Assembly (NCBI GenBank): GCA_029549925.1
Contig: JAKPIF010000007.1
Span: 1 to 37,296 of the forward strand
Direction of reading: 5' to 3'
Source of the DNA: a bacterium
GTDB taxonomy: Bacteria > Patescibacteriota > Saccharimonadia > Saccharimonadales > Saccharimonadaceae
DNA: 37,296 bases
A model generated the notes under the pieces. It saw nothing but the letters and a program-made list of their open reading frames with translations. It was not told where the DNA came from and did not search any database. This document shows positions 2,581-23,704 of the stretch, piece by piece (within the stretch, counting starts at the first letter, position 1; each line of letters opens with the position of its first letter). A program made the translations under genes and the position numbers.

Positions 2581-4081
2581 TTTGGGCAAGCTTTGGGCCG
2601 ACTAGTGTGGCTATATCAGTTTCACTGGCTTCGCCAATCTTTTTGACTGAGCCGAAATGTCGAAGCAGCTTGCGTCGCGTCTTTGGTCCGACGCCAGGAA
2701 TTTCGTCGAGCTGGCTGCTGATCTGGCGCTTTTGCTTAACGCTCTGATGATAGGCGATGGCGAAGCGGTGTGATTCGTCACGTAACCGTTCGAGTAGCTT
2801 TAGTAAGTCGGTATAAGGACTAACCACGGCTGAGCCAATAAAAGTAAAGCTATGCCCCGCACTATGCTGGGCGCCAACATGCAAGTTAATTTCGTAGTGG
2901 TCGGATTGGTCGTTGACGGTTACGCCGTCGATGGGTCTTATAATTAGACTCTTGATCTTAGCTGTATCGAGGTGGCTCTTGCTCTTGCAAACGACAACCA
3001 GATCATTGTCCTTGGCCATGCCGACAATGGGAATATCATCAGGTACGACGTCGTAGATGGCGTTAATCTGCGGTGCGCCACCGTCGACGACGATTAAATC
3101 TGGCTGCCCCCAGGATAAATGGCGGGGCGAAAAGCGCCGCCCCATCACCTCGCGCATGGCGGCAAAATCGTCGTTCTTATTTCGGCTAATCTTAAACTTG
3201 CGATATTCGCGCTTATCGGCAACGCCGTTAGTAAAGACTACCATGCTGCCGACAACGTCTTGGCCGCCTTGGTGCGAAATGTCATAGCCTTCGATGCGGC
3301 GGGGTGGCTTCTCAAGCTGAAATAGGTCCATGGCGCCATCAAGTCCCCGATCCTTGCTAATATCCATAAATTCGTCGCTTCCAAAAATAATCTTGTCACG
3401 CAGATGGTTAAGGCTATTAATTTGATTGCGCAAGGTTGCTGCCCGTTCAAAGTCGAGCCTATCGGATGCTTCATTCATCTCGATCGCGAGCTCCTTTTGG
3501 ATGCTAACGCGTTCACCCTTAAGGTAACGGGCGAGCTGGCGCAGGCTTTTCTTGTATTCTTCGTTGGTGCCGTCGGGCGTTAAATGAAGCTGCTGCATTA
3601 ACTTCGAATCACGCTCGCTGAGCTTCGTTAGATAGGGAAAGGTGTGGCGCAGATAGCGAAGCGCCCGCTTGACTGGGGCGCTACCGTAAAAGGGGCCAAT
3701 ATACTCGGCGCCGTCATCCATTGGCACGCGTGTCAAGGCAACGGTTGGCCACTCACTCTTAAAATCGATGCGGACATAGCTGTTGTTCTTATCGTCGCGT
3801 AGCAGAATATTATATTTCGGCTTGTAGCGCTTGATCATTTCGTTTTCGAGAAAAAGGGCGTCCATCTCGCTATCGGTCTCGATCCAGTCTGTCATGGCGA
3901 TATTCTGGACAAGCTTCATTGTCTTAGCATCCTTAGGACTATTGTTGAAGTATTGGCGCACCCGATTCTTTAGCACCGCTGCCTTGCCGACGTAAATCAC
4001 TTCGCCGTCAGCGGCCTTGTGGAAGTAAACTCCCGGTTTGGCCGGCAGGGTTTTGAGCTTATCTTCCAAGGCTTTATTCAT
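2507..4081 (-). CDS. uvrC: Excinuclease ABC subunit C
   Basis: GIY-YIG N-terminus (KPGVYFHKAADGEVIYVGKAAVLKNRVRQYF), UvrC RNase H-like core (IEGYDISHQGGQDVVGSMVVFTNG), C-terminal HhH (IPGVGPKTRRKLLRHFGSVKKI). Confidence 0.97.
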   Translation of the reverse strand: MNKALEDKLKTLPAKPGVYFHKAADGEVIYVGKAAVLKNRVRQYFNNSPKDAKTMKLVQNIAMTDWIETDSEMDALFLENEMIKRYKPKYNILLRDDKNNSYVRIDFKSEWPTVALTRVPMDDGAEYIGPFYGSAPVKRALRYLRHTFPYLTKLSERDSKLMQQLHLTPDGTNEEYKKSLRQLARYLKGERVSIQKELAIEMNEASDRLDFERAATLRNQINSLNHLRDKIIFGSDEFMDISKDRGLDGAMDLFQLEKPPRRIEGYDISHQGGQDVVGSMVVFTNGVADKREYRKFKISRNKNDDFAAMREVMGRRFSPRHLSWGQPDLIVVDGGAPQINAIYDVVPDDIPIVGMAKDNDLVVVCKSKSHLDTAKIKSLIIRPIDGVTVNDQSDHYEINLHVGAQHSAGHSFTFIGSAVVSPYTDLLKLLERLRDESHRFAIAYHQSVKQKRQISSQLDEIPGVGPKTRRKLLRHFGSVKKIGEASETDIATLVGPKLAQTIHQSLAHVAGEAASPHQPAEPHD

Positions 4082-7595: not shown

Positions 7596-9092
7596 ATGAC
7601 GAGTATTGGAAATGCGGGTGAGCACGGGAGCGAGATTGACGGTGACGCCAAGAAGTATTTAATCGATGGTTATCTACCAACGATTGGCATTGAGTGCCAT
7701 GTCCAGCTCAACACTGCGACAAAACTATTCAGCAGTGCCGACAACGATGCGCGCGATGCTGAGCCGAATAGCAAGGTAACTGAGATTGACTTCGCCCTAC
7801 CTGGTATGCTGCCGGTGCTGAATCGTGAGGCAATTCGTAAGGCGGTGCGAGCGGGCAAGGCACTAAACAGCGAGATTGCTCATGTTAGCCGTTTTGATCG
7901 TAAACACTACTTTTACCCTGATTTGCCGAAGGGCTATCAGATTTCGCAGATGTATCAGCCGCTGATTATTGGTGGGCGGGTTGATTTGCCGTCGGGCGAG
8001 CATGTGCGCATTCACCACGCCCACGTCGAAGAGGATGCGGGTAAGCTAACGCACTATAGTGACCATACTCTAGTTGATCTCAATCGTGCGGGGACGCCGC
8101 TAATTGAAATCGTCTCCGAGCCAGATATCCACTCAGGCACGATGGCGCGGGCATACGCCGAAGAGCTGCATCTACTAATGATTTATGCGGGCGTAACTGA
8201 AGGCGATCTCTACAACGGCAATATGCGCTTTGACGTTAACGTGTCAGTGGCAAAGCCGGGCGAGCCGCTGGGAACACGTGCTGAGATGAAGAACCTCAAT
8301 AGTTTTCGTGCGGTCGAAAAGGCAACAGATTACGAAATTCAGCGTCAGATTGAAGTGCTAAAGAGTGGCGGTGAGATTAAGCAGCAGACTCGGGGCTGGA
8401 ATGAGGTTGAAGGCAAAACGGTTCTGCAGCGCACGAAAGAGAACGCCGAGGATTACCGCTATATGCCCGATGCGGATATTCCACCAGTAGTCTTGAGCAA
8501 TGAGAAAATCGCTGAACTTCAGGCGGACTTCCCAATCATGCCTGCTGAATATCGTGAACGCTTCGCCAAAATCGGCGTTGATGATTCGGTGGTACGGGTG
8601 CTACTGAATAACCAAAAGCTCGCCGAGGCAGTGGCTGAAACGCAGGATATGGCAGGTGATAAAGCAGCTAAGCGCATCGCCAATCTCTTTAGTAGTTGTC
8701 TGCCGAGCGAAGATGACACCGATCAGGCGAAAAAGGCACTAAACTTGCCTTCAGTTGAGCACCTCGTCGAGCTGGCTAAAATGCTAGACGAAAAGAAGAT
8801 TAGTAGCACCAATGGCAAGGACGTCTTTGCTGAAATGTTAAAGGGCGACGATTTGCCAATAGTAATTGCCAAGAAAAAGAAACTTTTGCAGGTGAGCGAT
8901 AGCAGCGCTATCGAAAAGATGGTCGACGAAGTTATTGCCGCGCCTGAGAGTGCCAAGGCGGTAGCCGACTTTAAGGCAGGCCAAGAAAAGGTCTTGGGCT
9001 GGCTGGTTGGCCAAGTCATGAAACGCTCGCACGGTCAGGCCAATCCGGGAATGGCGGGTGAAATGCTACGGCAAAAACTGAGCACTAAATAA
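7596..9092 (+). CDS. gatB: Asp-tRNA(Asn)/Glu-tRNA(Gln) amidotransferase subunit B
   Basis: IGIECHVQLNTATKLFSS, LPGMLPVLNREAIRKAVRAG, KHYFYPDLPKGYQISQM; SD GGAGG upstream. Confidence 0.97.
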   Translation: MTSIGNAGEHGSEIDGDAKKYLIDGYLPTIGIECHVQLNTATKLFSSADNDARDAEPNSKVTEIDFALPGMLPVLNREAIRKAVRAGKALNSEIAHVSRFDRKHYFYPDLPKGYQISQMYQPLIIGGRVDLPSGEHVRIHHAHVEEDAGKLTHYSDHTLVDLNRAGTPLIEIVSEPDIHSGTMARAYAEELHLLMIYAGVTEGDLYNGNMRFDVNVSVAKPGEPLGTRAEMKNLNSFRAVEKATDYEIQRQIEVLKSGGEIKQQTRGWNEVEGKTVLQRTKENAEDYRYMPDADIPPVVLSNEKIAELQADFPIMPAEYRERFAKIGVDDSVVRVLLNNQKLAEAVAETQDMAGDKAAKRIANLFSSCLPSEDDTDQAKKALNLPSVEHLVELAKMLDEKKISSTNGKDVFAEMLKGDDLPIVIAKKKKLLQVSDSSAIEKMVDEVIAAPESAKAVADFKAGQEKVLGWLVGQVMKRSHGQANPGMAGEMLRQKLSTK

Positions 9093-20277: not shown

Positions 20278-20832
20278 ATGGAGAAATACGAAGTAGTGGG
20301 CGACAAGAAGAAACATCTTGATATAGCCAAGGTTGTAGCAGTAATCGAAGCGGCTATAATAGTGGCTCTAATTGTTGCACTAGTTGCCTGCGGCAAAAAT
20401 AAATCTTCTAACGGCAGCCAATCAGCTAGTAAATCGACAGATAAGATGCCAAAGTCCACTTCCTCGGCACAAGTATATGGTGTTTGCGCTGAGGATATCT
20501 CTAAATTTAATAGCATCTATACCAATGGCGTGATTGGAACGGGCGACTTTAAGAATCGAATGAAGAATGTTGCATCGGACGCAATGGGGCGAGATGGCGC
20601 ATCCGATGACCCGACGTGTTTATTTATTGATTTTAAGTACCAGATAACGGCGTTTAATGTCGACGGGGCGCAAAAGGATTATGATAAATTAAAGTCGCTA
20701 GCCACTAGGGGGCAGTATCCTAGCAACGATCTAATTACGATTAGCTCAATGAAAAATATGCAAACGGATATTGATTCGATTAACCGAAGTCTAAAAACAG
20801 ACGATGATGCCTCACAGCAGGGTATCGGCTAG
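20278..20832 (+). CDS. Hypothetical single-TM, probably extracytoplasmic protein
   Basis: TM segment VVAVIEAAIIVALIVALVAC followed by Ser/Lys linker; no family recognised. Confidence 0.7.
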   Translation: MEKYEVVGDKKKHLDIAKVVAVIEAAIIVALIVALVACGKNKSSNGSQSASKSTDKMPKSTSSAQVYGVCAEDISKFNSIYTNGVIGTGDFKNRMKNVASDAMGRDGASDDPTCLFIDFKYQITAFNVDGAQKDYDKLKSLATRGQYPSNDLITISSMKNMQTDIDSINRSLKTDDDASQQGIG

Positions 20833-20851: not shown

Positions 20852-23704
20852 ATGTTATGGCGGTCTAAGTCCAAAATAGTTGGTGGCATAATATTAGTGC
20901 TACTATTTGGGATCATGCTGGGCAATGATTGCTTAGCGGCTCACAGTACACCTCAGAACGCTTTTGAGCAGTATGTAGCGAGTGGTGATCCAAATGCTGG
21001 GGGCGATCTGAGCGATTATGGCAGTGACTGGAGTGATCAAGGTAACACTTGTAATCGTTGGGATAATGTCTCCGCTAACCGTGGCAAGCTGTGGATTACC
21101 GGTGACGCCAACAATGTTTATGGTGAGTGGTGGGGTGATTCTAATAAGATTGACGTCAAATGGGGTCAAACTGAAGCGACCGTCTATCTGGCTGGATCGA
21201 TACGAAATTGCTTTGGCGTAAACTTTGTCTCGGCGGGAAACGGCAAAGCAACCTTTGTTGAAGAGAAGGTATGAAAGAGACGTTATCTCAAATCAATTTC
21301 GAGCGATACAATCGATCGTGGCTGGGGAAATACAGCCTATCAACGTTTCACGGATCCGCCCCGGGCTTACTCAGCCGTTCTCGATACTAGCGCCGATATT
21401 TTACCTATGCGTGCTGGCGCTGAAGTGAAAATCACGATTTACATCAGGCGTTGCTATCAAGCGTCGACTCTCACTGACAGTTGTGGTGCGGCAGGTGTTC
21501 CATTGACGCTTCATCGTCTGGGTCCTCAGTATGAGACCAGAGGTGCATCGTATCTTGACAAAACTTATCACGATTATTGTTCAACTAGCGTATCTGGCTG
21601 TAGTAAGAGCGACGTCATCTTTCGCCCAGGCGAGACAGCGTATTGGAATCATAATATTTGGAATGCGGGCCCAGATTCGATCGATAGTATTGCTTGGGCC
21701 GTTGACCGGGACGATTACTATATCGGAAGCGTCGATGCCTTTAAGTCGACGGATAATCCTGGTCGTACTGATGTGTCTAATGTGCCAGCCAACTCCTTTG
21801 TCAGCGGGGCTAACGACTATAGGGATAGTTTTAATATAACGCAGGATGCGGTTGGCCAAAAGCTCTGTCAGCAAATTCATTGGAATCCTAGCACAAATGG
21901 CGTAGCTTGGACGTCATATTCGAATCAGGTATGCGCCCTTGTGCCATATCATTACTGGTCAGATTGGCAAACGACGCTCTCGCGTAGCACAATCAAGCCA
22001 GGACAGGAATATACGGCGAAGTACAGTGGCACCAATAACGGCCCAACTAAAACTATGCCGGGATTGACGTATGCACGCAGTCTCTATTTTCAGTCCAGCG
22101 ATGGCTGCAAAAGTGATATTCTAAGCAGTAGTTCGGGTGAGCTGGCGTCAATTATGCCACATAATGCTATCATTCCACAGAAACAGCAATCGTCCGGCCA
22201 AAAAACGGTTCTGTCGCGGTATGGTTTGTGCCGCTCTGTTGATGCCGGCGATAAGATCTGCAGTACGATTAGTGCCAACCAGTGGCGTTATGCTTATAAC
22301 TATGGGCTTAGTGGCGGTTATAATGCTGGCAAAACAGCCGTGGTTAGTACTGATTGCTCAAGTGTGCCGTACCACTACCCGGGATGTCCTAGTGGCTCAA
22401 GCTGCTCGGCGACATGGAACAGTAGTTGGTCCGAGGGTGGTTGCGCTGCTAGTGGTACATGTAGTGGCAATATAGTCAAATCTGGTGTTGGAGTCCAGCC
22501 GTCAACGAGTGCGAGCGTTACGGATACGTTGTATGATAGTCCGATTAATTTCACTTATAGCATGAGCAACAGTGGGCCAACAAAGTCGATGAACGTAGGT
22601 TGGACTAAGCATGTCTTTCTGGTCTCGCGTGAAACGAAATACAATGCCGATGATAAGACGCGTCTTTATGGTAGTGGTAGCGACGTCGGTGTAAGCACGC
22701 GCACTGGCCTTAACTCTAACCAATATCGCGAGTTGTCAGCACGTAGTGGTGATCACGTAGTGTCAGCCCACGGGACCAATAGTCTTAGTGAGTGGAGTAG
22801 CCTTGTGCCAGCAGATAATTGGTCTAATGTCCAAGTGGGTGACCAGGTATGTTCATATCTGGCGCTGGATAATAAGTGGGCGGTTTTCGATGGGCGGACT
22901 GTCAATAGCACTATAGCATCCAACGTTAAGTGTGTTCGCATCGGTAAGAATCCACAGATGCAGATTAACGGCAGTGACAGTTATGCAAAAAATGGCTTTA
23001 TTGGCAGCTCCACAACAAATAGTGGGCGCGGCTCATGGGTCCAGTATGCTCAACTAACTAATTCTGGCGAGACGAAAAACTTCGGTTCTGCAGGCTACAC
23101 CTGGAGTAAAGGCAATAATAGCCGACGGATGATTTTTGCTAACGTTCGCTTTGCTACCGATTATTCTGGCGCCGCGAGCAGTGTCCAAAGTGGCGGTCTT
23201 ACCGCTAATAATAGCATTAGCATAATAGTTAATAAACTAAAAATTAAGAGCAATGGTAATTCTCAAATTGAGTATTCATCGGGTTCGTTGACGATTAATA
23301 GTAACATTGACGATGGTAAGATTAGGGTAGCCGAGGGTAATATCTATATTCGGCCGAGCGTAACGCACATTCGTGGTGTTTTAGTGGCGGGCGGTAGTAT
23401 TGAGACCTGCTATGATAGTGGCAAACATGGTGTAAACGGGAATTTAGGTATTGGTCCAAACGGAGTTTGCAATAACCAATTAGTGGTTGATGGAGCGATT
23501 TTGTCTGGCGATTCGCCAATATTTCATCGCACCTACGGCGGAGGCAATCGAAATTTGGCATCCTATGGTAGCGATTATTATATGGCAACAGCAGAGAAGA
23601 TCAACTATACGCCCAATTTATGGCTATCGGGCAATAAGTACTCTGAGGGCATTCGAAATAGCTATCTGACGAGCAGCATCATTTCTTTGCCAACCCGTTA
23701 TTAG
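20852..23704 (+). pseudogene. Large secreted repeat-domain surface protein interrupted by one in-frame TGA (21272-21274)
   Basis: ORFs 20852-21274 and 21407-23704 share a frame. The 21275-21406 interval is also open in that frame (KRRYLKSISSDTIDRGWGNTAYQRFTDPPRAYSAVLDTSADILP). N-terminal signal peptide KIVGGIILVLLFGIMLGNDCLAA. Confidence 0.7.

Follow-up and report, generated by a model that had tools for sequence, protein, structure and literature searches.

The window analyzed here is the whole stretch of 37,296 nucleotides, which is contig 2 of a 614-kb genome assembled in 39 contigs and estimated to be 96% complete. Judging from its size and its genes, the genome would belong to Patescibacteria, probably to Saccharibacteria. 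It includes a gene for a large secreted protein located between radA and a gene coding for a 184-amino acid membrane protein, on one side, and a PIN/TRAM gene, on the other. The features that define this locus are listed below, with the basis for each one.

20278..20832, plus strand: gene for a 184-amino acid protein that has one membrane segment; in several relatives, the family members are preceded by a small protein homologous to it, which makes a two-gene module.
20852..23704, plus strand: secreted surface-protein gene of 951 codons, interrupted once (translation; family profile and relatives).
20852..20941, plus strand: signal peptide-like N-terminal stretch, MLWRSKSKIVGGIILVLLFGIMLGNDCLAA, with an AAGGGA about 10 nt 5′ of the ATG (read from the sequence).
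21272..21274, plus strand: in-frame TGA at codon 141, in the context GTA TGA AAG (translation).
21275..21406, plus strand: the 44 codons (132 nt) from the TGA to the next ATG, in which codon usage resembles that of coding DNA and start codons are absent (ORF list; codon scores).
21407..23704, plus strand: downstream ORF of 765 amino acids (ORF list).
23687..23701, plus strand: C-terminal LPTRY; the relatives end in LPVRY, LPARY or LPPRF (comparison with the relatives).

Translation of the region 20852-23704 (plus strand) produced one continuous frame of 951 codons that ends in TAG and has the TGA at codon 141 as its sole internal stop, as a previous sequence-only reading of this DNA had described. 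The ORFs listed in this frame are 20852-21274, coding for 140 amino acids, and 21407-23704, coding for 765 amino acids, and there is no in-frame ATG, GTG or TTG within the 132 nt that separate them. The number of stops expected by chance is about 3 per 64 codons, or about 45 over the frame, and only one internal stop was observed; the open frame far exceeds chance. The mean codon log-scores in frame 0 were 0.137 before the stop, 0.099 in the 132-nt gap and 0.111 after the stop, and those of the other two forward frames were negative. No further disruption was found in the 2.85-kb frame, in agreement with what had been stated before. The designation of the protein as "giant" has to be taken as a relative term, as many relatives have 600-1,000 amino acids and some of them exceed 2,000. 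The ATG at 21407 is not accompanied by a Shine-Dalgarno-like sequence, by a promoter-like site immediately 5′ or by a signal peptide. Therefore, 21407-23704 is unlikely to constitute a separate gene.

The relatives of the protein were compared with the regions located at both sides of the TGA. A protein from the same genus encoded by one ORF (L045) paired with the pre-stop part with a score of 72 (z 7.3) and with the post-stop part with a score of 49 (z 4.7), and in both cases none of 300 shuffles was as good. Another relative, L049, matched both sides, with scores of 60 before and 46 after the stop (1 of 300 shuffles each). The junction is spanned by BLASTP alignments as well as by a three-way alignment. 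Among the about 145 profile matches listed, a stop in the middle of the protein was found in the window copy only. An internal TAA in a family member from another genome (G057) was rejected as a second case; it sits near the C-terminus. Apparent frameshifts in the members from two other genomes (G131 and G191) were also rejected, as they correspond to scaffold gaps (runs of N). Conservation is poor over residues 1-140, which a profile built without the window protein scores no better than shuffles. Because of this weak conservation, the evidence that the first part is continuous with the rest comes from the two pairwise matches together with the gene layout. These results supported the proposal that this is a single gene with a nonsense codon, since the relatives consist of one unbroken protein that matches both sides of the stop. 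Orthologues split in two proteins with a start near 21407, which had been named beforehand as the finding that would speak against this proposal, were looked for and not found.

A search of genome contigs identified no close relative of the window protein, and a search of viral contigs identified no relative. In the one genome of the same genus that was compared (G001), one contig breaks off shortly after radA, in the first part of a secreted-protein ORF, and in another contig the PIN/TRAM gene adjoins a family C-terminus truncated by the contig end. These two contigs, one carrying the radA side and the other the PIN/TRAM side, indicate that the locus is common to both genomes. The search gave no close orthologue and contig ends cut the G001 copy, so that codon 141 has no true orthologue from which its ancestral residue could be read.

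No Pfam or NCBIfam model matched the window protein or its family. A family profile built with ten members, which includes the part of the window protein located after the stop, matched 267 of 295 genomes from the taxonomic family to which the window's genome belongs, and 198 of 206 when the count was limited to genomes with a completeness of 90% or more and a contamination of 5% or less. The proteins are also linked by a search with the single sequence, without the profile, which detected relatives of the window protein in 36 of 198 genomes. The profile matches the window protein in two stretches, residues 110-479 and 499-950. Comparison with solved structures produced only weak S-layer matches (E ~0.01), and the fold predicted from the single sequence for the last 254 residues had a pLDDT of 30 and was discarded. 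The family members are usually one unbroken ORF that heads a type IV pilus operon, pilM-N-O-pilB. In most of the relatives that were extracted with their flanks, the surface-protein gene is directly upstream of pilM, pilN, pilO and pilB homologues (most of L049, L050-L053, L055, L057-L062, L144, L145 and L148), and the PilM and the PilB-type ATPase of L049 were confirmed by Pfam. The window copy is located outside a pilus operon and is not upstream of these genes.

Type IV pili and minor pilins of Saccharibacteria act in host binding, and PilX2 of Nanosynbacter lyticus is a pilin with a C-terminal beta-propeller (PMC12206443). The members of the window family share with these minor pilin or adhesin candidates a large size, export and a link to the type IV pilus. 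Unlike PilX2 as described (PMC12206443), the comparison being one of descriptions only, the window family has no Pfam or NCBIfam match and the window copy lies outside the pilus operon. A pilus-linked surface role for the family is a reasonable inference. As for the earlier mention of a surface adhesin, secretion and surface location are plausible, while adhesion itself is a presumed function. A by-product of this analysis is the recognition of a near-universal, uncatalogued family of secreted proteins tied to the type IV pilus operon of these ultrasmall bacteria.

To put the TGA in context, 431 kb of the same genome, sampled as stretches, and 290 kb of G001 were scanned for same-frame segments split by one stop that correspond to one continuous ORF in relatives or are protein-like on other grounds. 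Most of the junction matches were antisense or other-frame shadows of real genes and were filtered out. Besides the gene in the window, two interrupted genes were found in the 431 kb of its own genome, both accessory and both interrupted by TGA. These two cases and those found in G001 are the following.

L230:7668-8411 (contig C15 of the window's genome, G000), plus strand: gene with a B3/4 domain (PF03483), split inside the domain by a TGA at 8202-8204.
L222:3388-4206 (window's genome), minus strand: decayed remnant of a secreted-protein gene, 166 + 105 amino acids, split by a TGA at 3706-3708.
L235:11801-11803 (contig C5 of G001), plus strand: lone in-frame TAG that splits dnaE.
L236, stop at about 8134 (contig C6 of G001), minus strand: lone in-frame TAA that splits a DUF362-type gene.

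The B3/4 gene has unbroken relatives (L252-L254; identity 51% and 41%), and at the locus of the decayed remnant G001 has a gene for a 960-amino acid RCC1-repeat secreted protein. The TAG in the G001 dnaE is probably a consensus error because this gene should be essential. A lone in-frame stop, be it TAA, TAG or TGA, is part of the background in such assemblies; some of these stops probably reflect real decay and others probably errors. This measured background, which includes dnaE, warns against taking single stops as recoding.

The decoding of UGA was assessed in the genome that contains the window. The gene for RF2, prfB, is present (418.8 bits, over the cut-off). ARAGORN, applied to the 43 tRNA matches and their surroundings in this genome, which is about 96% complete, gave no UCA anticodon. 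A true tRNA-Sec was not found; all matches of the tRNA-Sec model were ordinary tRNA genes, the best one being a tRNA-Ser. UGA is the terminator of 35 of the 272 long ORFs sampled. The RNA after the stop showed no structure beyond that of shuffles (z -0.73), and a stop kept at the same place was not observed in any relative among the about 145 matches listed. A recoded UGA, be it through code 4 or 25, selenocysteine or a suppressor tRNA, was rejected in view of RF2, the tRNAs present and the use of UGA as a terminator. The data lend no support to UGA recoding, and the stop-codon readthrough that had been offered as one explanation found no mechanistic support.

If the UGA were read through here, either because decoding is leaky or because recoding is programmed, some full-length surface protein would be made, and the downstream frame is fully open for this. 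UGA is generally the leakiest stop codon. The three interruptions detected in this genome are TGA, while the share of TGA expected among single-base nonsense changes with the genome's own codon usage is 17-21%; the chance of this outcome is about 0.005-0.01, a rough and post hoc value based on three cases. In addition, the three closest relatives of the B3/4 gene carry Cys at the column of the TGA. Against this stand the presence of RF2, the lack of a UCA-anticodon tRNA or a tRNA-Sec among those identified, the unremarkable RNA after the stop and the lack of relatives with the same stop, and one of the three TGA cases is a decayed gene remnant. We therefore consider readthrough improbable. The same low probability is assigned to a leaky UGA that extends to the whole lineage, where genes with one internal UGA would persist and produce low levels of full-length protein; if true, this would account for the occurrence of TGA, and of no other stop, in the three interruptions found in the sampled genome. 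This pattern speaks against an unprogrammed mutation, but with three cases it is too small to serve as a basis, and we regard it as the one loose end in favor of a leaky UGA. It is very improbable that the region consists of two genes, one for a small secreted protein of 140 amino acids and another one for the 765-amino acid protein that starts at 21407. An arrangement of two genes would agree with the two open ORFs and with the weak conservation of residues 1-140, but the gap between the ORFs has coding-like usage, the second start lacks all the signals mentioned above and the relatives are one protein. The sequence-only reading had also considered a polymorphism that acts as phase-like control. 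In such a case, the population would maintain an on allele and an off allele of a surface adhesin. A surface protein from a multi-copy family would be a suitable subject for such control. However, the other family members, among the about 145 matches listed, are unbroken, and a point nonsense codon does not belong to the usual switching devices, which makes this explanation highly unlikely.

It is thus very likely that the locus holds one gene with one unprogrammed stop, whether this stop is a real allele or an error. An error in the consensus, in the assembly or from a mixture of strains, with the gene intact in most cells, is conceivable in a fragmented assembly of 39 contigs. The remainder of the 2.85-kb gene is undamaged; the lone TAG in dnaE and the lone TAA in the DUF362-type gene of G001 indicate that such stops occur even in genes that should be essential; and the family members of G001 are at contig ends, as would be the case for repeats that break assemblies. 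The dnaE stop, which looks more like an error in a normally essential gene, counts at the same time against a real mutation in the window. On the other hand, random errors should also reach housekeeping genes, and the interruptions in the window's own genome are found only in accessory or secreted-protein genes, although the numbers are small. We consider an error a rather unlikely source of the TGA. The three interruptions in this genome all spare the housekeeping genes, in keeping with real gene decay, and a real recent mutation is more likely than a consensus error. We consider it moderately probable that the single unprogrammed nonsense codon is a recent, real mutation in a gene for an exported surface protein associated with type IV pili.

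According to this preferred explanation, the nonsense codon at position 141 would have arisen recently, through a point mutation in the population that was sampled. Translation would end after 140 residues, with the release of a secreted stub, and the 809-codon remainder would not be made in useful amounts because it has no start signal or signal peptide. We infer that the base is real rather than a consensus error, that the change happened recently and that the stub has no function. The loss of the gene is probably tolerated because the same genome has a second family member, unbroken and 937 amino acids long (contig C32). The window gene resembles the nonsense-interrupted genes, or young pseudogenes, of bacterial genomes and metagenome assemblies, with which it shares an in-frame stop in an otherwise open frame, unbroken relatives and a second copy; nothing in it is distinctive with respect to them. 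A broken gene in itself matters little.

Two other observations were made. The arrangement of a gene for a small membrane protein followed by one for a large surface protein, which in the window comprises 20278-20832 and 20852-23704, is also present in L045, L048, L049 and L055. In addition, a TANAAT-like hexamer lies no more than about 15 nt 5′ of many start codons of the window, which have no clear Shine-Dalgarno sequence (1945, 4118, 5450, 9117, 18884, 20278 and 32633), a disposition that resembles what leaderless transcripts would show.
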